A DNA stretch of 64,000 bases from Chytriomyces cf. hyalinus JEL632 (taxonomy: Eukaryota > Chytridiomycota > Chytridiomycetes > Chytridiales > Chytriomycetaceae). Positions 13,384-64,000 of the stretch are shown here, piece by piece; position 1 is the stretch's first letter, and the number at the start of each line of letters is the position of its first letter. The notes under the pieces were generated by a model, which worked only from the letters and a program-made list of their open reading frames with translations, did no database searches and was not told where the DNA came from. The stretch spans positions 159,461 to 223,460 of the forward strand of contig JAIWWG010000061.1 of assembly GCA_025435555.1 (NCBI GenBank), in the 5' to 3' direction. A program made the translations under genes and the position numbers.

Positions 13384-13387
13384 TACT

Positions 13388-24810: not shown

Positions 24811-26397
24811 TCAAGCAATTGGCTCTACTCTAATGTTGGAGTACTTGGCTGGTTGGTTTCCAGCAGACTTGCACTTTGGGTTGCTGCTGCCTCCGTCCAA
24901 CCAGTCCATACCACCGTTACCAGCCTCCCAGTACGAGAGAATGAGAGTCATACCAGCCTGCTGTCCGCGTCCCATCTGCGCAACGTTTCCATAATCATTC
25001 ACGCAGTTACCCTTGTTAATGTTTCCAGTCTCAAACTTGCGACCTTCCTGCTCAAACACTTGCACAATGTTGGTCAACGTGCCTTGGTCCGTGTTATCGC
25101 TGGTGATGAATTTGGTCGTCACTTTGAAAGGTTTCAAAGTGTTGATGACGGCGCTGTTGGGGCCGACTTGGGTGGCGAATTTGGTGCTTCCACCGGCGGC
25201 GCAACCGTTGTGGTTGCAGTTGTTTCCGTTGACTTGGCCGAGGTTTGTGCACTCGTGCGTAGTCACTTGGGAAGAGGCAATGTTTCCCTCCAAAATGTCC
25301 ATCTCCATGCACGTGTTTTGGCCGTCGCAGTAGGTGGACCCAAGGTTCACGGGCATGGCGCTAAAGTAGAGGGCAGAGTTTTGGCCGCACTTGATTCCCG
25401 AAAGGTCTGTAGTGAAGGAGATTTGGCGGTTGTTGAGGTAAAACTGTTTGTATGTGGTTGCAGCAGCGTCGACCAAGTAGAAGCGTCCAAGACCGAATGA
25501 CATGTCGCCGGATTCTTGGATGTTGGAGGAAATGCCGCCCCATGCTGGGATCAAGAATGTGTTGCGCTTGTAGCAAGTTTTCGTCTTGTCGCATTCAATG
25601 ATGGGGAACTTGGTGGCGTAAGCGGGGGGAGCACCGTAGGCGGAGGTGACGGTTTTGCCTGGAGCAGCTGGCTGTTCTGGGACCTTTGGAGTAGTTGGGG
25701 TTACTGACGTGGTTGGTTTGGCTGCGGCGGTGGTTGGTTTGGCAGCAGTGATTCCTCCACAAAGGGCACCTAAACAAAGACAGTTTAGCAAGACGCACAA
25801 AAGAGAGAGTAAATGTTGAAAGTATTCCTCACCCTTGTTTGAAGAAGCGATCGCGTCACTCTTGCTCACAGCTCCAGCCTTCATCCAGCAGGTTCCTCCG
25901 TTGGCTTCGGTCCAGGAAAAGTGGGTGCATCCAGATGTCTTGGCACAAGTCTTTCCACATTGGCTACCCTTTCCGGTTGAGGTGGAAAGAACCGCGCCGT
26001 TCCAGTCACATTTTCTTGCCCAGTAAATGCCGTTCGATTCATCCTTAAACTTGATGGAAGTAGTGGCGGCAGCTGCAACGGGAGAAGGAGCAGGGGCGGC
26101 GCCAGCAGCAGCAGTCTGTTTCAGGTACCCACACATGGCCTGGTTTGCATTGTCAGCGACAGCGCTCGATGCTGAAACGACACCGGTTTTCAAGTAGCAA
26201 GTTCCGCCGTTCACATTGTCCCATGCAAAGTGGGTGCATCCAGAGGTGGAGGCGCACTTGGAACCGCACTGGTCTCCTGACATCTTTGCGGTACCAATGT
26301 TTGCGTCTTTCCAGGCACAGTTGAGGGCCCAGGCACCGCCGCCGTTGACCTGGTTCCAGGCAATGGAGTCTCTAAGCTGTAGGTTTGCTGCAGACAT
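24811..26397 (-). CDS. GH7-like (cellulase-family) protein with two PAN/Apple-like modules (507 aa)
   Basis: Exons 25833-26397 and 24811-25769 join in phase (508 codons). The intron also reads open, but encodes an implausible Leu/Cys stretch. Two N-terminal repeats, about residues 15-90 and 115-190, share W...C.W....G......GDQCG..CA.TSGCTHF.W...NGGTC..K, a PAN/Apple-like cysteine pattern. After a Thr/Pro/Ala linker, residues about 240-507 resemble glycoside hydrolase family 7: CGQNSALYFSAMP, then EMDILEGN, which keeps the E-x-D-x-x-E catalytic spacing of EMDIWEAN. Further on come GMTLILSYWEAG.GGMDWLD and the end YSNIRVEPI. GH7 enzymes cleave beta-1,4-glucan (cellulose). The protein is divergent and much shorter in the loops. 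No signal peptide is visible after the ATG at 26397, which is odd for a secreted hydrolase. A TATA-like TTAAAAGG lies 66 bp upstream. Confidence 0.75.
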   Translation of the reverse strand: MSAANLQLRDSIAWNQVNGGGAWALNCAWKDANIGTAKMSGDQCGSKCASTSGCTHFAWDNVNGGTCYLKTGVVSASSAVADNANQAMCGYLKQTAAAGAAPAPSPVAAAATTSIKFKDESNGIYWARKCDWNGAVLSTSTGKGSQCGKTCAKTSGCTHFSWTEANGGTCWMKAGAVSKSDAIASSNKGEEYFQHLLSLLCVLLNCLCLGALCGGITAAKPTTAAAKPTTSVTPTTPKVPEQPAAPGKTVTSAYGAPPAYATKFPIIECDKTKTCYKRNTFLIPAWGGISSNIQESGDMSFGLGRFYLVDAAATTYKQFYLNNRQISFTTDLSGIKCGQNSALYFSAMPVNLGSTYCDGQNTCMEMDILEGNIASSQVTTHECTNLGQVNGNNCNHNGCAAGGSTKFATQVGPNSAVINTLKPFKVTTKFITSDNTDQGTLTNIVQVFEQEGRKFETGNINKGNCVNDYGNVAQMGRGQQAGMTLILSYWEAGNGGMDWLDGGSSNPKCKSAGNQPAKYSNIRVEPIA

Positions 26398-27790
26398 TTG
26401 TGTATGTGTTAGGTCTAAGGGAGGGTGGTAGTTGGGGGGGTTGCTGAGACGTGCGGAAGATTCCTTTTAAGCAGAAGCGAGCTGACTAAATTTTTATTTT
26501 TAATGTTTTGGAATTAGATTTTTGTGCCTTTTGCGCAGCAAGCCACTTGTGGGACTGGGCTCGGACATTTCGTGGACTTTACTTTTCGGACAAGTTTAAA
26601 CAGCATAAAATGGGAAGACAGACCCTTCTCTGATCCCCTGACTTCCACTCCCTCAACCAAAAAGCACTGCACAACAACCACACTCGGTCGGACGATCAAA
26701 ACGTGCCGCCGAGTAATCTCCGCATTTTTGTCTTGTCCCCACCTCATCAAATAAAATCTCGTGCACAAAAAGCCATTCCGACAAATCTCATTCCGTCATT
26801 TTTTCCAATGGAAGCACAAATTGGTTTTCGAGTTGGAGAATCTCATTCGTGGTGTTGACAGCTAAGGAAGGGGCTTGAGTGAGAGGGAGCTGCTGCTGGT
26901 GACTGAGTGAGTTCCAGCACGGGCAGCCGGTGCTCGCACGTCGACGCCTGCCATGGGAGTTATCACCAACTTTACGAGAACTTGATTCATTTTTTCCCAA
27001 GTGCCTCGCCTTGACTAACAATCGACGCACTCCCTGCCTCTATTCTTAAAGCCCAGTCAACAACTAATGAACGCATCCATCTTGCTTGACAGAACTTGCA
27101 TCACTTGGTCACATGAAACTGAACGCGCGCTGCGCTTTCCGCAGGCGAGATGATTAAAGTCGTTTTTCATGTTTCTGATGCTCGGGGGCACGGCTGGCAC
27201 ATAAATCTACTGGGACTTGCGATTTTGTGTGTCATGTGTCGAAATATCAAAACTGAATGCGGTGTTCAGTTTTGAGACACGGGTATCGGCTACGGCTAAG
27301 CTACGGCTAAGCTGCGGCTATGGTTCCGACCTGGGTCCGTGTCGAGCGAGATTCGAGCTGTTGCAGGCTGAAACAAAAACCACCCAAAGCACTCCGTTTG
27401 AGAACACTCGGAAGTGCGGCAAAAGTTCGGTGTGATTCCAGCAAGCGCAGTTTCATTTTTGATGGTTCAAGACGCCGAACTTGATACGAGATTTTTTTTC
27501 TTGTCCACAGTTTGCAGAAGATAGATTTTTGTGGACTTGGGCTTGGCAGAAATTTTGAATGTTCACGCCTGTCCAGTGCCCGTTCAATTGCGAGAGTATC
27601 GACTTGTCAGGGCGCGCAGGTCAGATCTTGCACACGTTTTTATTGATGTGATGGGACCATGAACACTGATGGAAAAAAATACCAAAAAAGACAAAGAAGG
27701 GGCTTTTGACACACACAGGAAGAAAAATTTTAAACTTTTTTGCGCCATACTATATATCCACAAATTATACCACCAGCTAAAACGGTTTCT
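26398..27790. other. Intergenic region, no gene supported
   Basis: Short open frames occur on both strands (for example minus 27030-26788, ending ..LENQFVLPLEKMTE) but show no domain or splice support. A short direct repeat, GCTACGGCTAAGCTACGGCTAAGCTGCGGCT, lies at about 27289-27319. Confidence 0.5.
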
Positions 27791-30051
27791 TTACAAAACG
27801 TTTCCTTCATTCAGCCACTGCTGGGCCTCACCGCACGTTTGAGCAACGGCTCCCGGCTTCTCAAGCTGCTGAATGTCATATATGGACTCGACAAACGTGA
27901 TTCCAAGTCCAGCTTCGAGGTGGAATGTTATGTGGCAATGCATCAGCCAAACACTAACAAGAAAAGAAATTGGTGCCGTAGTTTAGGATTTCCATGCAGT
28001 GTAGGAAAAAAGTTTTGTTTTTACCCTGGGTTATTGGCGACAAATCGGATGACAGCGTACCCGAACCACACATCATCTTGCCCCGAAGGAATCGGGTACG
28101 GAGTCCCTTCCACAGACTCAGAAAACACGTGATATTTGGACATTGCCGCATCCACCGTCGCATTCGCAGGCAAACAAGCACTCGTCACAAGGTCATGCGG
28201 GCACGCGGCAACCGTCACAACATCTCGCCGCACAGGGTTCAAGCTCGACAGTGCCCGTGGAATTTTAGAAACACTGTTGGTCACGCCTGTCGAGAGGATC
28301 CAAAAATCGTGTCCGTGAATGTGGAACGGGTGTTCGCCAGGATCATTGTTGCGGATCATTACATCCACAACTTGGTTGCGCGCCAAGAAAATGGTGCTGG
28401 CTGCGGGATCTGGGTTCCAGCCGTGTCCCAGATCGTGCGCGCTCACGAGAAGGGGTTCCATTTTGGGAGCTTGGAAGGATGATGTGAAGAGAGGTGTCCA
28501 TGTGTTGTTTGTGCTTAATGTGTGAAGCGTGTTGTACGCCTTTTGATACAAGTCAGTTGCACGCGTTTCAAAGTTGAATTCGTAAAGGACTGTCACGTCT
28601 GCTGAAGGTTGCGCGGGAAACTGCACTAAAGAGGGTGTTGGGCTTAAGTTTGTGTCGTCCAAGATGCGTGGATGAGGTGGTGGGGTGACTCGCAGCGGTT
28701 TTTCGGCAGGGTCTATTGGGCTGTAGTTTAGAATGGCTGTCACGTGTGGATTGAATCCGATCGGCATTTCAGGCATCGACGTCCAGGTGTCTCCATGATA
28801 CATGCTTGCTCGGATCTGGAAATTGGACGGCGCACGGTTTGTTCTCACAATTACTCTGGACAAGAACACCAATTTAGTTTGAGATATGGGGATATGAAAA
28901 TGAAATCAAACGCACGAGTATCTTTGCGCAACATTGAGAGAGATCATATCGACAACATACGGCTCAACCGTAACTCCATCAACTTCGACAACCGTCAGTT
29001 CATGGCCATCAATGCTGAACAAAAACGCAGCAAACGTTCCCGTATTCATGACTCTCAAGCGGCTCGCAGTCTTTGGAGCAATCGTTAAAACATACGGCGT
29101 CTTTTGCGTGCACGGCCGACCCGGTATCGCTGTGCAATTAAACTGCCCAATTCCATTAATCAGTCCAGACTGAAAAACGGGTTCATTGCCATCCGGATTC
29201 GTTTTACTGCTGAGATACCAGTCCGACAAGCTCTGCGAAGGCTCATGATACCAGTCCGACAACTGAATCAAATGCTCCGTGTCGTATTTGGGCACATTTT
29301 CGTTCGTGTCGTGGATAATGAAGGGGCCTCGCAAACCGTCGATGCTTTGGAGTCCGTAATGCGCGTGCCAAAAGAAGGATCCTACTTGATCATCGATTGT
29401 AAAGTTGTAGATGTAAGATCTTCCTGGAGCGATTGGGCACTGGGTAACGCCAGTGGGGCCGTCCATGAACCCGGACGAGTTCTGAGACAGGCCGTGGAAA
29501 TGGAGCGCCGTTGGGACAGTCAGGTTATTTGTGAAGTGCAGTATAATGCGGTCGCCCGTGTTTGCGTCAATGACAGCATCGTGCCCGTTTCCGCCATTGA
29601 TGCCGTACGAATGAACAGTAACTCCGTCAAAGTTGACCCTTTGCGCAGTTGCTGTCCAAAACAACTCGACGTTCTTAGGGGTATTTAGAGCCGTTGATGA
29701 TGATGGATGGTTCAAAGGAACAGAGTGTGATGATGCGGGTTCAGCTTCCTCGTGTGAGTCATCGTCTGCTTCTTGTCGTTGTGCTAGGCAAAAGAGGCCC
29801 ACAAAGACAGCCACTCCAACGCACGCAAACGCTGCTGCCAACAGTTTCTTTAGTGGCAAGGATCGTCGGGGTACCTCGGCCCACTCCGTCTCGCTGTCTT
29901 CGTACACTCGCCAGTACCGCTCACCACCCCTCAACTTCTCCTTCTTTTCCTGCACGCCCGTCTTCCGGCTCACGTCCTTGTCCTCAATTAGTAGTGTTTC
30001 ATCGCTTCCTAGGCCCGTCGCTAGTTCTACCGGAGACACTGAAGTTGGCAT
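27791..30051 (-). CDS. Multicopper oxidase with N-terminal membrane anchor, laccase/ferroxidase type (709 aa)
   Basis: Exons 28916-30051, 28025-28855 and 27791-27953 join in phase (710 codons). All four copper motifs are present: ALHFHGLSQ (about residue 184), FFWHAHYG (about 228), HPFHIHGHDFWIL and, in the last exon, LMHCHITFHLEAGL. The residue ten places after the type-1 Cys is Leu, so the axial ligand is non-coordinating, as in many laccases of higher redox potential. Residues 71-90 (LAAAFACVGVAVFVGLFCLA) form a single transmembrane segment after a charged cytosolic tail of 70 residues, so the enzyme should be a type II membrane protein with its catalytic domain outside. Fet3 ferroxidases have a C-terminal anchor instead, so this layout is different. 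Substrate (phenols or iron) cannot be told; I did not see the Fet3 iron-site pattern. Confidence 0.9.
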
Positions 30052-30193
30052 CTGTTTTCGATTGTTTTTCTTTGACCACCTTCATAAATTTGCCGATTGC
30101 TTGGAGACATGCGTAAACAAGAAATGTCCCAAAATACGATCACAAACGCGTTACTGGGACTTCCCCTTCATTTTACTGTTTTTGTTTTTTACG

Positions 30194-32818
30194 CTAAAGC
30201 GATTCGATGTCTACACCAGCCTTTCCCAATCCAACCCACGGATCGCGTCCACCTCCCCACTGAAGCAACTCCTTCTTCAAAACCTCTCCACCTTCACGCA
30301 AACCATCTACCCGATACGTTTTCGACCCAACTCGAGCATTCTGGAATGCACGTGCACACACGGCATCGCTAACGCGTCTCGCCCAAAAGTAGCTGTAGTA
30401 ACTGGCTCCGTAACTAAACAAGTGCGAGAACTGGGTCTGCCACCTTGTTCCTTCTACGTAAGGAATGACGTCTGTCTGGTTTTGGACTTGTCGCAACATT
30501 GCGGTTGTGTCAAAGGAGACGTCTTCCATTCGTTCTAAGCACAATTGCGAATTTAGTCTGAAGCAGTGCAATATTGAATTAGAAAGTTATTACCCGAATG
30601 ATAGACTTGGTCCAGCATCGCCATCTTCAACTGTGCTTGCTTTTCCACAGCTTCGAGAATCACTGAACGCATTCGAACGCTGTCGACAAGGTCTCCTGGA
30701 ACCTTTTCACCCGTCGCGTAATGGATGCCGATTGCCTTCAACACGTCATTGTCTCTTGCAAAACTTTCCAAAATGTTGCTGGGAACTTCGACAAAGTCTA
30801 GCGCGCATCGTGTCCCGCTAATGTGCTGATAGTCCGTTCGAGCAATGACGCTGTGCATCACTGTAGAGAAAGAAACGAATTAAATTCGATGGCGTGTTCG
30901 AAAAAGGCGCCTCAAAAAAAACGTACCATGCCCCATTTCATGAAACAAAGTCTCCACTTCACCCAACCCCAACAGTCCTGGTGCGATTCCATTCGTTGGC
31001 CTCTCAAACTGCGTCACTAGTGTCACAATCGGTATCTGATACACCTTCCCATCGCTTCCCTTTCGTTCCGTTTCAGGACACCGCAACCCACCCCTCGGGC
31101 TCAAACACTCTGCCTCATAATCATCCAACCGCCTCGAACACCGCACAGTAAACTGTGCCGCACCTTCAAATTTATCAACCGCCACACTTTCTTCGCGTTT
31201 AAACAAGTCCATATACACGACCCCAATCACGCCATCATCTTCATCCACTACATGCAGTTTTCGAACATCCTTGTGCCATACTTCGCCCAGTTTGATTTCA
31301 TTGCAAGGTTCTAGACGGACACCATAGAGTTGTTGGAGTAACGAGCTGATTCCGGAAAGTGTGCGGCCTACGCTAAAGTATGGGCGTAGAGATTCGGGGT
31401 GTGCGGTGGTTCGTGTGTGTGGGCCTAGGAATTGTGAATAGAATTGTTTATCCCATGCATGGAGAATTGTTGGGGTGGTGGAAGATTTTTGATGCGTTTT
31501 TTTTGAGGGAAACGAGACGCGCGATTTCGGATTCGGCCATGGGTTTGTTTTGGGCGGATACTTGGGATAGGAACTTGAGAACGTTTTCTAGAGTAGAATA
31601 AAGGTGTTTTAGCTCTAAACCCTGTTTTTCTTTTCTCTTTTTTCTGGGTTTCCCGCGCTCACCTGTGGATCCGGCCATTTTGTCACCCAACCACATGTCG
31701 GCATAACTCCTTTTCCCAAGCAAATGCGCCAAATCTTTTCTTCGTAAAAGCAGACCCTCGAGAAACTGTACAGCCTCATCCGAACCTTCATTCATGCCCA
31801 TATACACGATTCGACGAACATCCTCATCACGCGCAGATCGAAGAATGTGATGCGCGTTTCCACTTCCGTCAATTGGAATCACTGCCAAATTCGGATCCGA
31901 TTTAGAAGTCACTGCTTGCACGATTTGTGGGTACACTCCTGCTAGCCGTTGAGATGGGTTTTCAATTTCGATTCCTTCGCAGTTGGATTCGCTTGAAGCG
32001 CGTACAAATCTGTATCCCAAGTTCTGTGGAACCATGGAATTCCAAATCGATAAACAAAAATGAAATAGGAGAATTGGGAGAATTTGGTTGTTTACCAAAA
32101 TGTCATCGCTGATTTCGACAAACTGGCGGCGCTCTTTTTGTCCAAGATGGATGCCGCTTTTTTGAAAGTCTTTGATGAGCAAATCGGCGACAACGCGTGT
32201 TTGTGTGGATGCGTGGGCGTGGGAAGGTGATGCGTTGTGAGCCAAGATGGAGCGGTTGAGTGACTGGCGGAGAAGAGAGCGGACCTTGTTATAAGTACAT
32301 GGGGATAAACACGGAATAGGTGGTTATTTTTCTTTTACATTGTATAGTCCCTGGTGCGTGTTGAGCTGATTCATGAATGATGTCAAAAGTGCGTTTCCGG
32401 CTTTCGCATCTTCAACAACGTCAGGGTCCGGATGAACATTTTGCACGAGTTCTGTTGCGTCCAAGACTGAGCACAATGAGTCCGAAAGGGCGTCGAGCCG
32501 CTTGACAGCTGTGGTGAGTGGGAGTGGGGGCAGACTGCTGCCTGCCGAGGCACTGCTGTTGAGCCCGCCTATCGATGAACCATCAACACAGCCATCAATG
32601 GAGCCAACGATGGCGCGTGCCCTCTCAACGGTATCTGAGGCAATCTCGGTCCATGTCCAACGCCCACTCTTTGCGGATAACTTGAACGGCTCAAAGTGGT
32701 AGCCAAACAGCAGGCTCGTGCTGTTGCTGGTTGCTTTGACGCTGTGCTGGAGCCCGGTGTCGAAGAGGGCGACGAGGGGTGACTGCGCTTCTTGCGCGAG
32801 ACGCTTCAAGTTGACCAT
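30194..32818 (-). CDS. OCT1: Mitochondrial intermediate peptidase (M3 metallopeptidase), one apparent frameshift
   Basis: Six exons: 32339-32818, 32096-32284, 31663-32023, 30927-31587, 30594-30860, 30194-30534. All junctions agree in phase except for one extra base in exon 4. The zinc motif HEMGH is split by the intron at 30926 and continues VMHSVIARTDYQHISGTRCALDFVEVPS, the MIP/Oct1 signature. The N-terminal block LDALSDSLCSVLD and HPDPD also fits MIP. Oct1 trims octapeptides from precursors in the mitochondrial matrix. At 31497-31504 a run of eight A (minus strand) puts the frame one base off; with seven, KK followed by ...HAWDKQFY is in frame and the total is 766 codons (765 aa). This is either a sequencing indel or a real mutation. 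The start ATG overlaps the end of the upstream F-box gene by 13 bp. Confidence 0.85.
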
Positions 32819-49984: not shown

Positions 49985-51358
49985 TCATTCGTCTTCCGAG
50001 TCTTCAGATTCGGAACCAGAGAAATCTCCCGTATATGGAATGACGCCATGCTCCTCGTAACATTTGTGAAATCCTTCCCGTACCACGTACGTTCTTTGAT
50101 AGTCACGATCCAAGCACATTGTCATCTTGACATCCCTTTGCGACATGTCCAGTATTTCGCCCCCAGAGAACCGATTCCCAACTAAATGCAATGCTTCCAG
50201 GTCCTGAAAGTTCAAGATTTCCCGGGACGGTAACTCGCCACTGAACAGATTGTTGGACGCATCCAAAGTCTGAAGGTTGCCCAAGTTACCCATACCAGTA
50301 AGGGATCCTGACATGTTGCAACCGCTCATCTCCAAACAAATCACGGCTGTCAGATTCCAGATTCCGGACGGTATTTCACATGAGAATGCGTTCTTACTGA
50401 TGTGCAGCACCAGCAGGTTTGTGAACTGACAGATGGAAGCCGGAAGAACACTGAACAGGTTGTGGTCAGCGTGCAAAAATTCCAACTTGAGCGGATTGCC
50501 AAACACAGTCGGGACGGGGCCCGTGAAATAGTTATGGCCAATTGACAAGGTCACGAGATGATTCAAATTTGGCAATGCAGGAAAATCTCCGATCAGCTGA
50601 TTGTTGGCCAGATCAAGGTGCTGCAGGGCGGACAGCAGGTTCAACGAGCTCGGAAGCGCGCCCGTCAATGAATTGCTCCTTAAGCGCAGAATAGTCAAGT
50701 TCTTCAATGCACCAAATACGTCCGGAATGTCGCCTGTAAGTGTGTAGTTTTCGATAATGATTTCCTCGACTGAAGTCAAGCAACAGATGGAACTTGGGAG
50801 ACTCTTTACGACATGTTTATATTCGACTTGCTTATAGATGCCTGCGAAAAAGGTTTTGACATGTGGGCTCAACGCCCGGGCAACGGCAGTTTGATAAGAC
50901 TGAGGGAGAACGAGCCATAGCCCACCAATTCCGCGCTTGGATCGTTTTTTTAAACCCGATAATTGCATATTGAGCACGGCAAATTGGCTGGTCAACAGGC
51001 ATTCGTTTATCATCCTTGAAAGGCGCCTGTATTTGAAGACGCTTCGGACAGGGATCCAAGCAAAGATCTGGATAATGACTTCGAGGGGGAGGTCCTGAAG
51101 GCCAGCAAAGAACTTTTTCTTGTGGTTTTGCAGATCCAGGACTTGGTTCGATAGATGCCGCTGAGCGCTGACGAGGGACAGTTGGGTCTCGTTGATGTTG
51201 GTGACTTGGGCTTGCACCTTTTCGAGAGTGCGGAGGATGACGGAGAGGGTGGCAGTGATTGCATCTAGTGACGGCATGGCGTGCGCATCTGATGCAGCGT
51301 CTAGAGCAGCTCCGTTTCCTTCGCTTTCTGTGTTTGGCTCAGTTCGTTGGCGCTTCAT
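49985..51358 (-). CDS. F-box protein with plant-type LRRs (457 aa), single exon
   Basis: An intronless frame, unlike most neighbours. After a Ser/Ala-rich start, residues about 35-80 form a coiled coil (ILRTLEKVQAQVTNINE). Residues about 88-130 are an F-box (LQDLPLEVIIQIFAWIPVRSV...RRLSRMI). From about residue 190 there are nine or so LRRs with the N.LTG.IP.. signature (LTGDIPDVFGALKNLTILRL, SLTGALPSSLNLLSALQHL). The tail is acidic Ser/Glu/Asp. It should be an SCF substrate receptor (family knowledge). The same LRR type occurs in the membrane protein gene that follows, so exchange between them is possible. Confidence 0.85.
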   Translation of the reverse strand: MKRQRTEPNTESEGNGAALDAASDAHAMPSLDAITATLSVILRTLEKVQAQVTNINETQLSLVSAQRHLSNQVLDLQNHKKKFFAGLQDLPLEVIIQIFAWIPVRSVFKYRRLSRMINECLLTSQFAVLNMQLSGLKKRSKRGIGGLWLVLPQSYQTAVARALSPHVKTFFAGIYKQVEYKHVVKSLPSSICCLTSVEEIIIENYTLTGDIPDVFGALKNLTILRLRSNSLTGALPSSLNLLSALQHLDLANNQLIGDFPALPNLNHLVTLSIGHNYFTGPVPTVFGNPLKLEFLHADHNLFSVLPASICQFTNLLVLHISKNAFSCEIPSGIWNLTAVICLEMSGCNMSGSLTGMGNLGNLQTLDASNNLFSGELPSREILNFQDLEALHLVGNRFSGGEILDMSQRDVKMTMCLDRDYQRTYVVREGFHKCYEEHGVIPYTGDFSGSESEDSEDE

Positions 51359-51858
51359 TGATCATTTTTAACGAAACCGAGTTTGATGTTCGCGAAGCCA
51401 AGCTTTGGAGTACTGGCATTCCATTGCAGACAACGACTGTGATGGACACCTCCTGAGGGCAATTGGCAAAAATGTTGACTCCTGCAAAGTAACTTTGAAA
51501 TCAGACTTTGGGATTGCAGATGTGCGCACTCGCACACTCCTTGCAGACAGTATTTGCGCACGCAAAATCAGGTGACTGGGTATGGTACTTCTTCAGGGCA
51601 TGGCTCTTTGTCGAGCGATCAGCTGCCGCCCGGGTATGCTGAGTTCTAACTGGTCTGGTTTCGGGTTTCCTCGTTTTTTTTTTGTTTTTTTTTGTCACTC
51701 ACACATGTCACTTTTTCCTCTTCCTTCAGTGTTGGAATACGCGCGCCGCGTGTCGATAAACATATTCTCTCGGCAGCTCTTCTCGATCCAACGGCGTTGA
51801 ACAACTGGGATTGTTTGGCAGTGCTAATATTAATGTCACATTTTCAGCTTTTCTTGAA
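51359..51858. other. Intergenic region between F-box/LRR and LRR-TM-SAM genes
   Basis: I searched it for an upstream exon carrying a signal peptide for the LRR-TM-SAM gene and found no convincing one. An acceptor-like TTTTCAG precedes 51848 and a T-rich tract lies at 51675-51695. Confidence 0.4.
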
Positions 51859-54193
51859 ATGTCGACTGCGAGCTTGTCACCCGACTGTGTGATCCTCACA
51901 GCATGGCAGCCCACAAGGTACAGAGGCGGATGCTGCGTTCCCAGTTCGAATTGCAACAGTGCCGGCAACGTCCAAAGAGTGTAGGTCACTCTCATTCCTA
52001 ACACGATCGGACGCTGACCAAAGCATCCAGGGAACTCTCCAGCAATCAGTTGCAGGGAATCATTCCGACAGAGTTCGGCCTGCTTACAAGTCTCACGTGG
52101 CTGTGAGTGTCATGCAATGGATGAATTCATCAAGTATTTAACATGGCATCCAGGTCTCTCTGGGGGAACCAGCTGACCGGAACTATTCCAACTGAACTCG
52201 GCCGTCTTACCAGGCTGCAATACGTGTTGGTATCTTGCCTCTGATGTACTCATCCAGTATTGAACACATTATCCAGGGATTTGTACAACAACCAGTTCAC
52301 AGGAACCATTCCGACGGAACTTGGCCAGCTTACGAGTCTCACGTGGCTGTTGGTGTCTTGCGTTGGATGATTCCTCACTGTTTAACAAACTTCCAGTGCT
52401 CTATACAACAACCAGCTCTCAGGAACCATTCCGACTGAACTCGGGCGACTCGCCAGTGTCACGTGGCTGTTGGTGTCTTGCATCATGAGCTGAATTCATC
52501 AAGCATTTAACACGTCATCCAGGAGTCTTAACGGAAATCAGTTGTCAGGAACCATTCCGACTGAACTTGGCCAGCTTACCGGCCTTACAAATTTGTTGGT
52601 GTCTTGCAACTGATATATCTATCTAATACTCTGCCCATCGCCCAGGGAACTCAACGTGAACAGGTTGACGGGAACCATTCCAACGGAACTTGGCCGGCTC
52701 ACCAGGCTGCAATTTTTGTAGGTGTCTTGCATTGTGGTCGATTCGTTTTTCTGATTGATTTCTTTACAGCCGTTTAAATGCCAACAACCTCAGCGGGAAA
52801 TTCCCTTGCGAACTTGGCAACTTGAGATCTTTAACTGTTACGTTAGTTTTTTGAAACGGCAGCTTTATATTGTTGTTTTCACACCATACCAAGCAACTTT
52901 GCAGGAAACTCCCTTGAGTCAACCAACTTTAATACTGCACAGCTGTCTCAGGTGATTGATTTTTGACGCTATCCAAAGTTTGCACTAAATGCTTCCAATA
53001 GTCTTGCGCAAGCACATTAATTGCACCGGCCGCAACCGCTTCATCTACTACCACTGTCGCCGCTTCAAACCCAGGGATCACCACCGTGACGAGTTTTAAT
53101 CCAAGCGTGACCTTTCTCGACACTGTCACGACCCTTACCAGCTTCAATCCAAGTCTGCCCTCTCTCAAAAGTGTCACAACCGTTACCAGCTTTATTCCAA
53201 GTGTCGATGACAAAAGTCCAACTGATCAGCAGCAAACTAGCGCTCCCATCATTGGTGGAGTTGCGGGTGCAGCTTTCTTTGTTTGTCTCATTGTGACAGG
53301 CTGCATCTGGTTCCGTCGACGAAGCGTGAAGAAGGAATCTCCTCCACGTGCGTCTGCAATGAATGAAGAGGAAGCGACGTAAGACAAGAACTTCTTTTCT
53401 GGCTTTTTTGCTGCAAGGATTGACTTTATACGATACGATCAGCTTTGGAACCGCTGTTGAAATTGTCGAACCTTTCGTACCAGCTAGTATTCCTCCTCCG
53501 CCTGCAACCATATATGCTTCCGATAAAAAAGCGGCTGTCGGTGCGGCGTTGGGTGATTTCTTGGTTGCAAGCAAAATTGCAGCACCACCTGAAAAAGTCG
53601 GTCTCTTTGATGGTCTTGGGGAACTGTCGCATGATCGAAAACATGATCGCAATTTTGACGCACCCAGCAAAGGACCTGCTCCGGACAGCAAAGTTGGTAT
53701 TGTCTCCAAACCATCTGGAGGCGTGTCAGATGAAGGCCAACCCTCTGCATGGATCTCAGCAACGGGCCTTCCATTAAAGAAATTTCCAATCAATCAGCCA
53801 TCTGAATCTCAACCGGTCGCGTTTGCTGTGTCGAATGACATTAATTCAAGTTCCTCGCATCATATCGCATTGCCTATGAATCCGAAAGACTGGAGCAAAG
53901 ATGAAGTTGGGCAATGGATGCTTGAAAAGTTTGAGGATGCAGAGCTGTCTTCGCTGGCATTAAGTACGACTTGAAGTGTTCAAGGTATTCTCAGCTTAAC
54001 ATAGTTATTCGAAACAGGTCAAAGGATCAATGGAAGAGTGTTGTTGATGCTGGAGAGGCCAGATATCGTATCTTGGCTAAAGATTGATACTGTGGGACAA
54101 ATTCTTTTGCTTGAAGAAGCGATTGCGGAGTTGCGAAGACAAAGCGCGCAACAAAGCGCGCTGGCTCAAGAAAACCCACCATCGTACGAGTGA
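51859..54193 (+). CDS. LRR - transmembrane - SAM protein (585 aa)
   Basis: Twelve exons join in phase (586 codons): 51859-51980, seven 72-nt exons (52031-52102, 52154-52225, 52277-52348, 52397-52468, 52523-52594, 52646-52717, 52770-52841), then 52894-52951, 53002-53378, 53443-53963 and 54018-54193. The N-cap has the PDC..L..W / CC..S.NC pattern of plant-type LRR proteins. Each 72-nt exon encodes one LRR of the L..N.L.GTIPTELG.L..L type. A Thr/Ser-rich stalk with a thrice-repeated TSFNPS unit leads to the transmembrane segment IIGGVAGAAFFVCLIVTGCIWF-like (about residues 311-332) and RRRS. A Pro-rich cytosolic region ends in a SAM domain (about 495-560: WSKDEVGQWMLEKF, INGRVLLML, LKIDTVGQILLLEEAI). 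No kinase domain and no signal peptide are seen. A surface receptor or adaptor is the likely role. Confidence 0.85.
52031..52841 (+). repeat. Tandem exon-intron repeats, one LRR per unit
   Basis: Seven units of about 120 bp, each a 72-nt exon plus a 48-55-nt intron, all phase 2. Exons share GGAACCATTCC.AC.GAACT. Several introns share a 5' start GTTGGTGTCTTGC (after 52348, 52468 and 52594; GTAGGTGTCTTGC after 52717) and a 3' ..TTAACA..TCATCCAG-type end. Introns are thus duplicated together with exons. Confidence 0.9.
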
Positions 54194-55056
54194 TTTAGGT
54201 GCTTATTTATTTTAACATGAATGAACTCAATGGCAAGCAGCGCCACGAGTTGCTTTTGAATCTGATATAACTGAGTAAAGAACACGTTTCTGGTAACTCT
54301 GACCAAACACATTTGTTCGCTGTTCAACCATTGTCGCGTGCTTCCGCGGCATCCCGCAACCGTCAGGCCAAAGCAAGAGTCAGGGTCTTTGTCGATTGCT
54401 CATATCGTGTTTTGGAATTTCAACCTGGTTGTACGACAGTCTCGATGATATCTTTGAAACGACCGGTGGCCATCCTGGATTTTCCATGTGGTCACTGAAC
54501 AAAAGCGCTTCAACATTCTATTGCACATGAATGCCCGTCAGTTTCTGAATGGAGAAATGCCAACAATATGCGTATACAATAGAAGAACACAATAGTTGGA
54601 ACTTCTCGCCATTCTCAAATCATCGAAAAACCTCGAAAGTAGTATGTGACAAATGACCCAATTTGCATCGGTTAGGACACAGTAACTGATGACAATACCA
54701 GCCTGCGTTGTTCCAGTCTCGTTGACAGCACTGGCTTATATTACGCGTGCGGTAATTCTCACACGGGTGAAAAGGTTAACGGAGCGCGCGTTCTTAAACC
54801 AGAATAAAAAGTTGACGGAAGACGGTGATGATGGCTTGCACGCTTCTCTTGAAACCAGCAGTGGGTTTCTTTCACGAAGATAATTGGTTTTTTTTTCTCT
54901 CCATCATATTCCTGCCCTTGTTTGAGGCTGATGAAAATCGAATTTTCTGTGGTTGGTTTCATTCAAGACGAAACATCAGTTTGTTTCATCTTTTTCTGGC
55001 AAGGTGAACAGGTTTGTGGTTAAAAGCAGAACTGTACAAGACCTCAAAAAGATTCA
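54194..55056. other. Intergenic region between the two LRR genes
   Basis: Several short open frames but no recognisable motif or splice pattern. It contains T-rich stretches near 54888-54900. It may hold the promoter of the second LRR copy. Confidence 0.4.
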
Positions 55057-56433: not shown

Positions 56434-59400
56434 ATGAGCGCACTCTCTTTTGTACCTCATCAGCTAAGAAATACGCCGGAAGGATACCAAAAGATATTTC
56501 CAAAAGCCTTTGGTACTGAGACAGGCATTGTCGCCATCATTGATATATCAGGTAAGTGGCCCCGATAAAATGAAGTCTCTGACAGTTTCAACAAGAAGTA
56601 CACCATTTCTTTGCTTTACAGGTTATTCAAAACTTTCATCTCATCTGCAAGAAGTCCTTGGCTCTGACAGTGGTGCAAAAATCAAAGAACTTTTGAACCC
56701 GCCAATTGAAATTATCATTCGCGAGGTTCATCTTACAGGAGGCTCCATTGTCAAATTTGCCGGAGATGCTGTGATTGCGATTTGGTTCTTAGACTAATAT
56801 TTGGAATGTTTCATTTTGTCCGCCTCAGGTCTGACCACCTATTTTGACAGGGCACACACCTCAAATTCGGAAAGCATGACACAAAAAATGATTTGTGGCT
56901 CGTTAGTATGCTGCCTCAATCTGCTGGATACATTCCGGAGTTATTTCATTTCGTACGAAGCGTCGGTAGTTGGGCAATTGAGACAAAATTCCTCCAATCA
57001 CGGCCCCCACAACAACTCGAATCGCAATACGACAGTAAATGACAAAATTCATACTGATAGATCCCTTTCAAGAGGACGTGCGAGTGAAGGGCGGCCTTTC
57101 AATATAAAAAAAAACGCCGATGTTATGAAAAAGCAGGCTTTGAAAATTCACATCGGACTTGGGTTCGGAGCCGCTTATCAGGTGCATTTAGGTGTCCATC
57201 AAAACTCTACACTAGTTCGCGCAGAAATGTTCATTGCAGGTCGGGCACTTTCTGAAAGCGGAATTCTATTGGGGGAGGGGAAGGAAGGAGACCTTGTTTT
57301 TGGGCAGCATTGTTGGGATGGCATCAAACACCTCGTTTCATCCGAAATCGCAACTCATTTCCGTCAGAAACAAACCGAGAACCAATTCAAAGTTACAACT
57401 ATCAATGAAAAGGATTCATCATTGCATGAATTCATATCCGTGTTAAATCACGAAATCAAGTGCTTCGATTTTTCCACACTGGACTCTGGCTCGGAATGCA
57501 TGCCTCGCACAATCAGAGAAAACTTCGAAAGTCAGCTGTCTTTTGTTTTGCCTTACTTGGATGATGCTTTGAGCAAGACGATTACCACGGCAATCTCAAT
57601 GGTGGACAAAAGTGTCGAACCTGCGCACTTTGAGGAATTGTTGCAAGTGCGATTGAATTACATGCTTAGTAGCTACGATCAGACAAGAAGCGTGTGCGTT
57701 ATATTTATTCAGTTTCACAATTTTAGCGTGGATTCGGTTTATGAGCCATACAATCTGCAAAAACTTCAATCTATCATGAAGGCGATTTTTGGGGCGATTC
57801 AAACGTACCAGGGGTGCTTGAGACAAATCAACTGCGATGACAAATCTCTTACTGCGCTGCTAGTGTGGGGTTTACAAGGTTTTGCACACGAAAAGAAAGA
57901 AGTTGAGTATGCGCTTCCCGCCGCCCTGGAAATTTCATCAAGACTCAAAAATATAATTGGTTCCATGTTTTCTATCGGCATAACAAGTGGGAGCGTTTTC
58001 AGCGGAATCGTTGGGAATGCAAATCGAGCAGATGGAACAGTCCTTGGGGTGGCCGTAAATAATGCAGCAAGAATCATGTGTCTTCCACTGTCGAGAGGAA
58101 CAGTTATTTGCTGTCAAGAAACGTTTCAGAATGCTTTGGATTTGTTTGAGTTCGATCAATCGATTCCGCCCGTTCATTTGAAAGGTACGCACCAATTTTC
58201 GAAGTCTCACCAATCTGTTTTTCATCAATTAGCATGCGCCCAGGTGTCCCGCACCCAGTAAAAGTCTATGAAGTTATCGGAAGCAATGAAAAAAGGCGAA
58301 CCTTTCTGAAAAGAGTTGTCGAAAGCATTGGAGGCCGTGATAAGGAAATCGCTCAAATCACCAACTCATATTCGCGGTGGTTAATGTCACAACGCGAGCG
58401 TCTTCTCATAACAGGTCGTAGTGGAGATGGAAAGACTACTTTAATGGCTTACTATCAGTCTCTGATGGAGAAGAATAATTCTGTCATCGTTTGGTGCGAT
58501 ACTAATTTTTTATGATATACTTTAATCGTGGCGCTAAATGACAGTCAGCATTGACAAAGGGCAAGAACACCATCAGAACACAATGCTATTCTGCAACTCT
58601 CAAATCTTAGCTGATCTTTTGAAAGCTATCAGAGACAGAAATTTTGCCCTTTCGCGCGAATACCGGCAGTCTTCCATTGTCAGTGGGCAATCCAAATCTG
58701 GAATGCAGACTAGATCTAGTTTTAAAAATTGTCGAAGATCAGATTCAATGAACCAAAGTAGCACATCTTTTAGCGGTGAACACCCGCTTCATGAATTCAT
58801 CACGGAAAGCTTCCCTGCGGCAACATGGGATATTTGGAGTTCTATTCCAGGATTAATGCGGCCTAAGAAAAAAAAACCTGTTGTCAGCGATTTTGTCTCC
58901 AAACTTGCAATGATTCTCTCGAGAGTTTTACACGTTGTTTCCAACAACGGCATGCGAGTCTGCATTATCCTGGACGATATGCAATGGACCGATAGTTACT
59001 CCATTGAATTGACTCATAAGCTCATGCAATCATCCCCACAAGCTCTGTTCTTAATTGTTTCCAGACCAAAAGAAGTAATTCAATTCAAGTTATTCGGAAG
59101 ACATATGACACTCACCTACCATGAATGATAGGAATTTAAAGCGTCCCTGAAATTGGAATTTCAAAAAATAATGGATTCTTCTGGTGTGTCGCACATTGAT
59201 CTAAAGCCTCTTGGGAGCTCTGGCGTAGAAGCGCTGATACGAAGTACTTTCGAAGGAAATTTGACCCAGCCATCACCAAAACACTCTTGCACCGAACTCA
59301 TGGAAATTCAATGCTGCTGACGTCCGTTCTGAAAATGATGAAAGAGGATGGCGATGCAGTACTCCGAGACGGTGTTTTGTCCGAGGTGCAGAAACCAGAC

Positions 59401-61847
59401 TCGTCAAGACCAGCGGCCAGCAACAGCAACTCAATCATTGCACAGTAAGTATCCGGCCTTATGGGGACATGTTATTTATTTGATCCTGATGTCAGGTTCG
59501 ACAAATTGGCGGTAGATATGCAGGATATCCTACGGGCAGCATCCGTCGGTGGACAACACTTCCGCATTGAAATACTCGCGAAGATAATGGCTCAATCAGC
59601 GCAGCCAGGAAAAGAACCATCAGAAGATGAAATAACAGCCACTCTAGAATCAAGTGACACATATCTGTTCATCAAGCAAACAGAGAATTCTTCGATAAAA
59701 ATGTTTTCGCATTTCCTCATTCAGAAGGCAATCTTGGCCACAATGGTTCCAACCAGGCGAAATGCGCTTCATGAATTATATGCCAATTATTATGAGCAGA
59801 CGCTCAATTCTGAGAATCAGTCTGGCCATCTTCAATCTCTGATCTTCCATTTGTTAAAGCTTCCCGGCTATGAAGACCGAAAGCAAAGGCACGTTTACGA
59901 TGCTTTTATCGATTCTGCAGAGTCTTTTAGAAGCAAAGAGGCCTTCGAGTTCTGGGAGATTCTGCAATCTTTTGAAAACAAAATTGAGTTTGCAAAGACT
60001 CCCCTCCAAAAATTCCACCAAACGAGACTCATTGCACAATTGCACGTAGAAGAGCGGTACTTATATGCATTTGTCTTCATATCTTTCAATTTCTTATCCG
60101 CTTGTTCAAAACTTCACAAGGAATCTTGTGCAAGGAATCGAAAGCTATTTTGAAGGTTTATCTATTTTCGGTTTCAAATGGCCACGAAGCGAACTAGGAC
60201 AATTTCGAGCGTTTTTAACAGCCAATTCGTTCATCAAAAAGCTCATGCAAACTGGTGAACCGGCAAAGCTAACGTTGGCTCGCAAGTACGCTTTAAAAAC
60301 TTTCCCTGTCGCTTTTCACGCCTGGACGAAGAAAACTGCATTCAAAATAACCGATGATGCGTTTTGGGAATCAGATGCGTTCTATGAGATTGTTGAAGAA
60401 ATCGTGCAATTTTACGAATTTGCCATCACTCCTATGATGATTTTAAAACCGGATATGAACTCCGTTTTCCTATGTGCGATGCAGACAGTTATGTCACACC
60501 TAACCAGGCAAGACAGAGATATTCGACTCAGTCTTTGCTGGGCAAGCATGGCTGTCACGTTCAGTGCCATCGAATTCAAAAAGTTGTCTCTTGCCTCAGA
60601 GAAATTATCTGTTCGCCTAATTGAGGAAAAAGGCTTTGTTTACGAAGAAGCGCAGCTTTCGACTCATTCGGCAGAGCTTTATTCTCATATTTTTGGTGCT
60701 CGTGCTATACGTTTATGGGGTGAAATGTTGCTCATGGATGCGTTTGCCAACTACCGAATCCAAAACCAAATCGTGGATGAAATCGGCTTGGGAAATCACA
60801 CAAAGTCGTATTTCAATCGCTGGATATCTCACATGGTTGCAGCTATGTAAGTCTTTACCGAACATAAATACAAAAAATTTTGATTGCTTGTCACCACTGC
60901 CAGATGCGGTTCATTTGAATCGTATGTCGAAGCGATGGAAGAAGATGCGGAATATTTAGAGCAGCTTGAAGGTCAAGAATTTGATGCTGCGACGCTTCAA
61001 GCGGTGAAGTCGTATTATCACATGACCCAGAATGCACCAGAGACCGCGGCCAAATATTATGAGGAAAGCGTTCGACACATTCGCTCACAACACGTATTTC
61101 GAGTTTCTTCTTCGTTCAAGAAAAGTTTTTTTTAATGGATTCACTTCAGGGAATGCTTGACGAAAACATGTCCAGAACTCAGTTCAACGAAATGTTTCTC
61201 TTCCTAGTATCACTTTCCCTTGCTCATACAGATTCTCTGAGCTATGAAGCGCCCGTATGGAATGAACGATGTGCTGAAAGCTGTCTTCAAATGGTTCGAG
61301 GATTCGAAAAGGCTAATTTTGTACAGGTATTATCCCCGTCAATTCTTCCAGTCGTAGACACTGGGTCACTCATGCAAAACCTCAGAAGCGTTACGCAGTA
61401 CCGGCGTGCATTCCATTAATTCCAGCTCTGGTGGACTGTTTTTTGTTGCGAAAACAAGGAGCAAAATTAGAAAGGGCGCATGAATTGCTTCAATTGCTCA
61501 AAAAAGTGGTTCCAAAGCGCATGAGAAAAGATCCCATTTGCACATACATTTTCTGGATGCATCAAGCGTTGAATGACCTATTTGCGGGCAGCATATGCAA
61601 ATTTAACAAAAAGGCTTCAATTGCACTCAAGTGCGCATCAAGAAAGAAGTTCTTTAACGAATACCTGGAAACACAGATGCGCGCTAGAATACTGGAGGTA
61701 CGGTTGGCGAATGGTGTGGACTCGAGGGCTCCTGCAGTGAAGATGGAGATCGATGAACTGTGTTCGTATTTTGAAAAACATTCATTCCTGCTTGAGGCAG
61801 CCCGGCTGGCCAAGTATCAGGAAAAAAGCATGGTATCGCTTCCTTGA
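56434..61847 (+). CDS. ADCY10: Soluble adenylyl cyclase (ADCY10-type), about 1606 aa, one apparent frameshift
   Basis: Eleven exons: 56434-56551, 56622-56784, 56851-58184, 58244-58493, 58549-59074, 59132-59444, 59496-60056, 60121-60846, 60904-61093, 61150-61326, 61386-61847. All junctions agree in phase apart from one missing base in exon 6. Cyclase domain 1 has both metal aspartates (VAIIDISGYSKL and IVKFAGDAVIAIW). Domain 2 has DDKSLTALLVWG, GIVGNANRADGTVLG and VNNAARIM, so the usual ATP-lysine, Thr and Asn/Arg positions are present. Then follow a P-loop NTPase (GRSGDGKTTL; Walker B VCIILDDMQW) and a long helical C-terminus, exactly the ADCY10 order and nearly its length (1610 aa). The animal enzyme makes cAMP in response to bicarbonate and calcium. 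Near 59262 the frame shifts by one base between EALIRSTFEG and KFDPAITKTLL-like sequence. Confidence 0.9.
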
Positions 61848-62528
61848 ATTCCTTCTGAATAAATATAAATAGAGCTCTTGATTGTTTCAATATCCGAGCA
61901 GGTTTTGGATTCCTTTTTACCTCACACGATCACACTTCCAGCACCGCCAGAAACGGCATCAGCCGAACCCGTTTTGACAGTCAATGGGCGGAACCCGTGT
62001 TGACAGTCAATGCGAATGCGCCGGTGCTGTTCAGACAGAGAACGGTGGACGATGCGTGACATCGTAAATTCACCACCAGACTGGAAGCAACCTTTAACAC
62101 AATTGAACAACTATGATGGATGGTAAGTTTTCGAGGTTTTACAGTAACTATCTGCACACGTTACTGGTTAAAGCCGGTTGGCTTATTAAGAGGTAAGGGT
62201 AGCATACATGCACACGTTACTGTTTCAAATTTTTGATCATCCCGCCTGACAGGTGGAAATTCCTCGAGATGTTGAGGACACTAAATTTTTCAGGCAATCC
62301 ATAACTATTATTGACTGGTTCGGGGTGGTTCGGGGTGGTTCAGATTGATTTACACAACGAGTGGCTGCTGATACGATTGAGATCGACTGCGGGAACGTAA
62401 TATGAGTGTATGGTTGAAGAAGGATACTGATTTATTGGATGCGGAGAGGACAAAGGAAGGCGAAGAGACAATCGAAAAAAAAAAAGAAACATGACAAGAA
62501 AAAACAGAGAGACAGAGCGACCGACCAT
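61848..62528. repeat. Intergenic region with several short direct repeats
   Basis: Two 22-bp copies of GAACCCGTKTTGACAGTCAATG lie at 61965-61986 and 61991-62012. GCACACGTTACT occurs at about 62155 and 62212. A GGTTCGGGGT repeat sits at 62317-62342. These cluster between the cyclase gene and the recombinase-like gene. No gene is supported. Confidence 0.6.
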
Positions 62529-62915
62529 TCAGAACTGCCCGCATGGAATGCTGTCTTTTCCCTGACATTTCGCAGTCTTGAAAGAGGATGTAGCAATCTT
62601 CGTATAGTGTTGAATAAACTCATCCACATCCCCAGAGAAGTGGTGCTGTAAGCAGCCCATGATTGGGCAACACTGGTTAACAAACGAGCGGGCACCTTCA
62701 GTGAGATCGGAACCAGAAGGTGTGCTGGCCAGAATTTCGCTGATCTTTCGCACTTTCGCAGCTCCTTGTAAACCCTTCACTGACTCTCGCTCCTTCAGAT
62801 CATTCTCACCACCTCGCTTTCGCTTCAAAGGAAGAGCCACTGTTGGCTGCACAAGCGGGGTGGATACAGTTCTCTGAACAATGATTGTCTGTCTGCGAAT
62901 AATCCTTCGCTCATT
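62529..62915 (-). CDS. Possible exon of an unknown gene, no ATG
   Basis: A frame without an ATG is open from about 62915 to a stop at 62529. It has a basic start (PLKRKRGGENDLKERE) and a Cys-containing end (FVNQCCPIMGCLQHHF, AKCQGKDSIPCGQF). It may be a 3' exon of the recombinase-like gene on the same strand, but I could not find a splice pair giving the right phase, so the link is unproven. 62916-63084 holds a Pro/Ser/Thr-rich frame that may be a further exon. Confidence 0.3.
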   Translation of the reverse strand, partial: NERRIIRRQTIIVQRTVSTPLVQPTVALPLKRKRGGENDLKERESVKGLQGAAKVRKISEILASTPSGSDLTEGARSFVNQCCPIMGCLQHHFSGDVDEFIQHYTKIATSSFKTAKCQGKDSIPCGQF

Positions 62916-63084
62916 GAAACAGGTGGCGGAGAGTTCAATTGTGCAGTTGCAGTTGATGGCGTTGGGTTCATTTCACTGCTCTGTGGAGATAAACGCGGCA
63001 GATTAATTGTGCTTGCATCGGTGTTCGTGTTGGGAGCCGTTGCTGCTCATTTTAAACATTTTAAATATAACTGCAATTGAATAA

Positions 63085-63927
63085 CTAACTGTCATCACCT
63101 TGTTGCTCATGCGTGTGTTGTTCCAATCCAACTGTTGAGTGTCCCGATTGGTGGTTGATTGTTATTGTGTCCATCTGGCTGACATACTCACCATCTCCAT
63201 CCTCCTCCTCATCATGATCAAACTGAATTACAACTGGCTCAACCTCTGTGTTCCGATACGTTGCCTCTGTCAAAATTCGCGAATACAGAACATTTAACTT
63301 TGCTGCAGTTGATGGATCCACAGTACTCAGAAGCTGATTCAGTTCTTGCCTCAGTGTTTTTGTTCTTGATGCGTTCAAAATGGCATTTGAAATGTAAATC
63401 GGCATGACAACAGGATTATCCATTGCAACCTTGCAATCGTGATTAATAAACTTGATTGCAACTGAGCAGATGCTTTTGTCAGCAGGAATTCCCAGATCAT
63501 GAGCTCGATTCACACTGCGCATAAGCTGAAGATCTTGGACAAAAATGGGCCTGAACTTTGGTGCCACAAGTGCTCCCTCATTTCCATTTCGAACGTTTAC
63601 AACGGCCATCAAGCTCAGTGCATCTCTTTTGTAGTGTGCACCCATGGCTGCAGATTTGTGTCTTGTGCATTTGAACATGTCACTGTCTTCTCCTCCTCCC
63701 CAGTATGACAGCAGATATCCAGTTTTCCTCATGGTATGTGTGCCAAATGGCCCACTCCGGTAAGGAATACTGATGGCACATGTGGACTTGATTCGACTGA
63801 GAACAGTTTCATATGAAATCCCCTCTTTGCAGTGGATGCGGCAACTTGGATCATCTTTGCGAGCTTCCACAATACGGTCCAGCTCATTGCGTGAAGGAAA
63901 TAGATATCCACTTGTTGCGGATCCTGG
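63085..63927 (-). CDS. Tyrosine-recombinase-like protein, C-terminal catalytic part
   Basis: The minus-strand frame is open from 63927 (stop just upstream, so an intron must join earlier exons beyond or near the window edge) to a stop at 63085. It reads GYLFPSRNELDRI..., then GTHTMRKTGYLLSYWGGG, then CTRHKSAAMGAHYKRDA. This gives the H-x-x-R box, a second His in RHKS and a Tyr seven residues on, the arrangement of tyrosine recombinase (phage integrase/Crypton-like) active sites. The box-I arginine would lie further upstream. The tail is acidic with Gln/His-rich sequence. Eukaryotic relatives are usually transposon genes (Cryptons) or domesticated ones; which applies here cannot be told without termini. 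Confidence 0.55.
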   Translation of the reverse strand, partial: PGSATSGYLFPSRNELDRIVEARKDDPSCRIHCKEGISYETVLSRIKSTCAISIPYRSGPFGTHTMRKTGYLLSYWGGGEDSDMFKCTRHKSAAMGAHYKRDALSLMAVVNVRNGNEGALVAPKFRPIFVQDLQLMRSVNRAHDLGIPADKSICSVAIKFINHDCKVAMDNPVVMPIYISNAILNASRTKTLRQELNQLLSTVDPSTAAKLNVLYSRILTEATYRNTEVEPVVIQFDHDEEEDGDGEYVSQMDTITINHQSGHSTVGLEQHTHEQQGDDS

Positions 63928-64000
63928 TCAAGGTGGACCAGCAGTCTCCTCATGTACTCAACATAAAGGAGAGCTCAAAATCTCTGGAATGCATGAAGAT

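Follow-up and report, generated by a model that had tools for sequence, protein, structure and literature searches.

An ADCY10-type tandem adenylyl cyclase family in ten copies in a fungus, with the bicarbonate-switch arginine replaced in each

Does a fungus carry a counterpart of ADCY10, the soluble adenylyl cyclase (sAC) of animals, and would such an enzyme answer to bicarbonate? Both questions are raised by a gene at positions 56434 to 61847 of a 64,000-nucleotide stretch of fungal DNA, which we call the window. Judged by its sequence, the gene almost certainly belongs to the ADCY10-type family of tandem class III cyclases. We found evidence of ten such loci in the genome, and in all of them the arginine that serves as the bicarbonate switch of human sAC is replaced. 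The combined reading that we prefer, and which we hold to be probable, is that of an active cytosolic ADCY10-type cyclase lacking the bicarbonate switch.

The ADCY10-type architecture and family, as named in the original prediction, were borne out by structure matches, by collinearity and by phylogeny. In the Protein Data Bank (PDB) the best match of the window's large exon was human ADCY10 (E 1e-11), the next being a photoactivated cyclase (0.03), and a profile of nine copies again gave ADCY10 (8e-22) ahead of the next match (5e-6). These ADCY10 matches of exon and profile fall in the second cyclase domain, C2, and the first, C1, was placed in the window gene by alignment and tree; for the divergent copy on contig C90 both cyclase domains match ADCY10. 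The relatives used as bacterial rows are three alphaproteobacterial plasmid proteins of 1,317-1,366 amino acids (L051 of Microvirga, L052 of Rhizobium jaguaris and L053 of Ensifer), which share the order C1, C2, ATPase (AAA_16) and are collinear over much of their length, the Pfam domain order having been run on two of the three. With the Microvirga tandem cyclase the window protein is collinear over residues 6-970 at 20% identity (E 1e-31, in a search of three proteins). Unlike the fungal genes, the bacterial ones are intronless and shorter. A pattern scan of genome contigs for bacterial relatives gave 84 matches, none of them confirmed.

The phylogeny comprised 14 rows per domain, namely the nine copies, the C90 copy, human ADCY10 and the three alphaproteobacterial proteins. 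The domain tree, which has 32 tips, joins every one of the 14 C1s in a single clade (100/98) and every one of the 14 C2s in a second (99/97), leaving outside both two rhodopsin cyclases, a GAF-cyclase and a bacterial protein with a single cyclase domain. A position outside the ADCY10 group was therefore not what the tree gave, as the fungal C1 and C2 join human C1 and C2, and the bacterial tandems do so too. Since C1s and C2s cluster separately with human and bacterial sequences included, the tandem is old and shared. The domain tree kept 149 of 318 columns and the C1-C2 alignment 483 of 672, and the tree is to be read with the tool's warning of long branches meeting and with human as the only eukaryote outside this genome. 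L054, which has one cyclase domain, was omitted from the C1-C2 alignment and included in the domain tree. The human C1 row lacks residues 110-138 and the C90 row was hand-joined from exons, and the rows for L027 and L029 came from models with one frame step and one stop, respectively, both in linker stretches; other models of these two loci avoid the frame step or stop. In the concatenated tree the C90 copy and the nine copies group together (95/96), and a grouping of human with C90 alone was not rejected (approximately unbiased, AU, test, p 0.066).

An exon search of the genome (37.8 Mb, 242 contigs) gave 14 matches on 10 contigs, corresponding to ten loci: the window and those that we name by their contigs, C200, C205, C44, C177, C14, C169, C172, C208 and C90. 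The last of these (L031, G000:C90:79500-87500, minus strand) is a divergent second lineage, found once. The C14 and C169 copies, 90% identical and collinear across 7.6 kb, could be alleles or homoeologues; between C200 and C205, on the other hand, the similarity (86%) is confined to the gene stretch within the 8 kb compared. Beyond the family, collinearity at about 87-92% identity was seen for the contig pairs C14/C169 and C31/C112 (about 8 kb) and C182/C215 and C186/C207 (3.4 kb compared), perhaps because the genome is duplicated, of hybrid origin or highly heterozygous. It is easy to overlook the family, as Pfam's cyclase model passes over all ten loci: PF00211 had 55 matches in the genome, none of them at the ten loci, scored 16.9 bits on the window's large exon for a cut-off of 21.9, and gave 20.8 bits, 20.5 bits and no match on three other copies. 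Two fungal copies were also compared with NCBIfam, which yielded nothing relevant.

The window gene was modelled with a spliced aligner using paralog copies as guides, and runs in 11 exons with 4,823 coding bases (about 1,607 codons) from the ATG at 56434 to the stop at 61845-61847, a start and an end that had been predicted exactly to the base. It encodes, in order, C1, C2, a P-loop ATPase and a long C-terminal half. The P-loop ATPase follows the C1-C2 tandem in human ADCY10 as well, and its presence after the cyclase domains, also predicted, is confirmed here by GRSGDGKT and then VCIILDDMQW. The length is, as expected from the original prediction, near that of the animal enzyme, which we take to be about 1,610 amino acids for human ADCY10. 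The ten introns are all GT-AG, 47-70 bases each, and explain every frame change except one. Among the 8 other family copies, intron 1 recurs at the same place and phase in 7 (it is absent from the C177 copy) and introns 2, 3 and 4 in all 8, intron 2 being counted when seen in at least one model per copy. The features are as follows.

56434..56551, plus strand: exon 1, start codon and N-terminus to DIS(G)
56552..56621, plus strand: intron 1, GTAAGT..TTACAG, resolving one frame change to give DISG/YSKLS
56622..56784, plus strand: exon 2, C1 core, with KFAGDA at 56753-56770 holding the K95 and D99 equivalents
56785..56850, plus strand: intron 2, GTTCTT..TGACAG, containing an in-frame TAA at 56795-56797
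56851..58184, plus strand: exon 3, remainder of C1, linker and C2
57143-57160, plus strand: exon 3 motif KIHIGL, His at the K144 position
57233-57262, plus strand: exon 3 motif IAGRALSESG, Gly at the R176 position
57818-57844, plus strand: exon 3 motif LRQINCDDK, Gln at the K334 position
58031-58072, plus strand: exon 3 motif DGTVLGVAVNNAAR, with T405, N412 and R416 retained
58185..58243, plus strand: intron 3, junction LK/GVPHPVKVY, common to 8 of 8 other copies
58244..58493, plus strand: exon 4, with the P-loop GRSGDGKT at 58414-58437
58549..59074, plus strand: exon 5, ATPase continued, with the Walker B-like VCIILDDMQW at 58958-58987
59132..59444, plus strand: exon 6, holding the sole unexplained frame break, between 59200 and 59318
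59496..60056, plus strand: exon 7, C-terminal half
60121..60846, plus strand: exon 8, C-terminal half
60904..61102, plus strand: exon 9
61103..61149, plus strand: intron 9, 47 bases, containing a run of eight T
61150..61320, plus strand: exon 10
61386..61847, plus strand: exon 11 with the stop codon

The AAA_16 match in the P-loop region (E 1e-5, 26.2 bits) lies under the Pfam cut-off of 32.6, and the C-terminal half has no Pfam match above cut-off. Intron 9 sits at the position of 48-base introns in the C200 and C205 copies; the C44 model has no intron at this site, where the aligner used a frame step instead. Of the apparent lesions considered, a frameshift in C1 was rejected as being an intron, the TAA at 56795 was rejected as a true stop since it sits in intron 2, which the paralogs have in common, and the run of eight T near 61125 was rejected as a coding frameshift since it lies inside intron 9, shared by C200 and C205. 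An extra 99-base intron proposed by the aligner at 56962-57060 was also rejected, the frame being open there and the stretch poorly conserved. The frameshift noted in the original prediction thus comes down to one remaining break and otherwise dissolves into introns.

The residues of the active site, numbered here as in human sAC, were read from the C1-C2 alignment over the ten fungal copies. The roles of D47, K95, D99, K144, R176, K334, N412 and R416 are those of Table 1 in PMC12867704, and that of T405 is from PMC12250328, both sources being available in part. D47, K95, D99, D339, N412 and R416 are unchanged in all ten copies, and T405 is retained in nine, with Gly in the C90 copy, in which R176, K334 and K144 are changed as in the others. 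M337, presumably part of the bicarbonate site, is Cys or Val throughout, and R176 is Gly or Ala throughout. Compared with mammalian ADCY10 (PDB 4clf, 4oya), the window protein is alike in its C1-C2 tandem, its similar length and D47, K95, D99, T405, N412 and R416, and unlike in having Gly/Ala for R176, Gln for K334, His for K144 and Cys for M337, and in occurring at ten loci. The metal aspartate pair (D47, D99) is found only in C1; C2 carries Gln at the first Asp position, and for this reason one active site is expected. Hence the earlier claim that both domains keep their metal and ATP residues holds for the C1 pair (10/10) and for N412 and R416 of C2, and fails for C2 in the lack of a metal pair and in the Gln at K334. 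Base recognition by C2 is in this way half preserved, with T405 in nine copies and K334 in none. A precedent for the Gln is mycobacterial Rv0386. The bacterial tandem relatives vary here too: in them position 334 holds R, Q or E, position 176 A or Q, and position 144 R or H, so that the changed states are not peculiar to the fungus; the relatives differ from the fungal copies in having S, M or L for K95.

The Cyr1 enzyme of yeast and Candida, likewise a class III cyclase, offers a further comparison. It has a leucine-rich repeat (LRR) part, and a search of the genome for PF08509, a G-alpha-binding domain that we take to be Cyr1-specific, gave no match, as did the control search. Unlike the tandem protein, Cyr1 is a homodimer, and its CO2 response has been put down to the lysine that corresponds to K334, a position held by Gln in the ten copies (PMC2987819, in the part available).

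If these residues act as they do in the human enzyme, a single active site would form at the C1-C2 interface, with metals on D47 and D99 of C1 and with T405, N412 and R416 contributed by C2, and would make cyclic adenosine monophosphate (cAMP) in the cytosol. In the accessible text of PMC12250328, R176 acts as the switch of human sAC: it keeps D99 in the inactive state and is itself freed by bicarbonate. With Gly or Ala in place of R176, the fungal copies are predicted to lack this switch. According to the portion of PMC12867704 at hand, a neutral residue at K95 or R176 goes with a lost bicarbonate response, non-mammalian sACs with such residue losses are held to be free of bicarbonate control, and the sAC of the sea urchin, which has K95 and is neutral at position 176, is switched on by alkaline pH, whereas bicarbonate does not activate it. 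The fungal copies are alike to this urchin (Arbacia) enzyme, of a type shown to be pH-controlled, in keeping K95 with a neutral residue 176, and unlike it in K334 and K144, whose equivalents the urchin retains (Table 1 of the same paper). We hypothesise that the enzyme would be set by another cue, most simply cytosolic pH as in the sea urchin, or by the ATPase and the C-terminal half, and that the cAMP could act on the many cyclic-nucleotide-binding proteins of the genome. From the residues, activity as a cyclase is probable, and freedom from bicarbonate gating a shade more so; gating by pH, argued from the urchin enzyme, is possible, though we would sooner doubt it than assume it.

Several observations weigh against an active cyclase without a bicarbonate switch. 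K334, the ATP-base lysine, is Gln and K144, the pyrophosphate residue, is His in all ten copies. The available text of PMC2987819 describes the lysine as essential for substrate binding in class III active sites, and a strain of Candida whose Cyr1 carries Ala at the equivalent residue behaved like the vector control; to this it can be countered that Gln differs from Ala and that the Rhizobium tandem protein also has Gln. In human sAC, a neutral K95 or R176 greatly lowers activity too, and earlier work is noted in which bicarbonate was reported to stimulate the enzyme of trout, of sea urchin and of others (both in the part of PMC12867704 used here). The trout sAC, which is without the mammalian bicarbonate residues, was earlier reported as bicarbonate-sensitive and not pH-sensitive, a report that later authors dispute (same source, same portion); because it conflicts, we lowered slightly the odds of the fungal enzyme not being bicarbonate-gated. 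The case for pH, moreover, is an analogy. At the same time, whole-length integrity was seen only for the C200, C205 and C44 copies, whose models extend for 1,579-1,595 codons free of stops and breaks, the C-terminal halves of five other family copies are loosely modelled, in some cases with a stop or a frame step, and no intron of ordinary size accounts for the frame change at 59,200-59,318 in the window copy. The idea first put forward for this locus, of a bicarbonate-sensing ADCY10 orthologue driving zoospore motility as sAC drives sperm motility, gains from the shared architecture, from K95 in 10/10 copies, from the clades with human C1 and C2 and from the trout reports. It is nevertheless quite unlikely, given the loss of the human switch residue R176 and the change at M337 in every copy, the view cited above of non-mammalian sACs with such losses, and a grouping of human with chytrid sequences apart from the bacterial ones that is neither favoured nor rejected (AU p 0.24 for C2, 0.42 for C1). 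The changes at K334 and K144 would also suit a tandem that has become a degenerate regulatory scaffold, leaving the work to the ATPase and C-terminal half. We regard this as improbable, since D47, D99, N412 and R416 are unchanged in the ten fungal and in all three bacterial proteins, and since Gln at K334 (L052) and His at K144 (L052, L053) recur in the bacterial tandems.

The state of the window copy and the origin of the family bring in two further alternatives. A true lesion, an error of assembly or a tiny intron could each lie behind the break between 59200 and 59318; the window copy is without eight residues there compared with the C200 and C205 copies, and a 26-base GT..AG intron would, by eye, suit the frame. 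Identity between the window and C44 copies is 0.53 before the break and 0.41 after it, and the unbroken control pairs C200-C44 and C205-C44 fall likewise, from 0.56 to 0.38-0.39 after the same point, so that there is no clear excess of decay after the break. Second-position differences between the window and three copies are 0.24-0.26 before and 0.34-0.40 after (control pairs 0.28-0.29 and 0.36-0.37), and third-position differences are 0.63-0.67 throughout, counted on an earlier window model that omitted the 99-base stretch and had a frame step replacing intron 9. The pattern means that constraint had until recently acted on the protein over its full length, and an old pseudogene is unsupported by the codon-position control. 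A recent pseudogene of an otherwise working family, lying near the contig end beside a mobile element, is a possibility that we take seriously without favouring it: the frame break and the multi-copy element adjoining at 62301-63912 speak for it, whereas the lack of any further stop or break across the coding bases, the absence of clear excess divergence and the other possible causes of the break speak against it. As for origin, the family could have come by separate gene transfer from bacteria and not by descent with animal ADCY10, given that the alphaproteobacterial proteins have the same domain order and are collinear with the window protein. Identity is 26% between window and human (84/326, over the available parts of human C1-C2), 22% between window and Microvirga (90/413) and 29% between human and Microvirga (94/321), so that the Microvirga protein is no further from human than the window protein is. 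However, the shared intron positions and the divergent C90 lineage in the same genome imply that any transfer was old, and the tree tests give no decision either way; we consider a separate transfer unlikely.

Rhodopsin-guanylyl cyclase genes are also present in this genome. One cyclase exon has rhodopsin-cyclase domains as its best PDB matches (E 1e-61), in chains that we presume to be fungal. Rhodopsin matches adjoin cyclase matches at four loci. Because such genes are present, and because they belong, as family knowledge has it, to zoosporic fungi (PMC12264004, in the available part), the organism is probably a fungus with swimming spores. Exon matches to cyclic nucleotide monophosphate (cNMP)-binding domains number 123, possible cAMP targets, and those to phosphodiesterases 26, possible brakes. 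Rhodopsin, cyclase and cNMP-binding exons are neighbours on C186 (about 29080-30704) and again on C207 (about 150743-152334), like a rhodopsin-cyclase beside a cyclic-nucleotide-gated protein. The same cNMP-binding exon clusters, with equal scores and spacing, recur on four or five contigs among C21, C33, C42, C53 and C62. In a search for a sperm-type Na/H exchanger partner, PF00999 gave 13 exon matches; frames were read at six loci, of which five are exchanger loci.

The window ends with its contig (C201, 223,460 bases). Its multi-copy element at 62301-63912 matches C210 at 99%, C33 at 97% (in part) and C12 at 89% (in part), with weaker or partial matches elsewhere, and contains an open reading frame (ORF) at 63085-63927 on the minus strand that looks tyrosine-recombinase-like by eye and has no Pfam match up to E 0.1. 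The last 89 bases (63912-64000) recur at 94-100% identity at at least 15 places on 14 other contigs, and no TTAGGG-type telomere repeat occurs in the window. Elsewhere in the window, stretches of 52000-54200 are repeated at about 67-86% identity on many contigs, and an LRR-rich ORF lies at 49988-51361 (minus strand). A tRNA-Leu (AAG) gene is found at 13300-13384 (plus strand). A GH7 cellulase with PAN domains (24814-26466, minus strand) and a multicopper oxidase (28909-30081, minus strand) suggest a plant-litter degrader.

The window gene and its relatives are new as a multiplied variant of the ADCY10-type cyclase, not as a new kind of enzyme. No description of a multi-copy ADCY10-type family in zoosporic fungi was found among the open-licence papers listed, of which those pairing soluble adenylyl cyclase with chytrids concern, in the parts available, the rhodopsin-cyclases. 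Taken jointly, the observations would allow a more speculative and, in our view, very doubtful reading, in which zoosporic fungi radiated tandem sAC-type cyclases, without the bicarbonate switch and with an invariant His at K144, as a graded pH-sensing cAMP system for swimming spores, and in which a Gln-Thr base pocket would widen or shift the choice of nucleotide. The finding would establish ADCY10-type cyclases as a multi-copy family in fungi, and it would offer a test, in sperm-like swimmers, of which signal the enzyme answered to first, pH or bicarbonate. If the joint reading were true, the pH-gated sAC of animal sperm would represent the older mode, and bicarbonate gating would be a mammalian addition.

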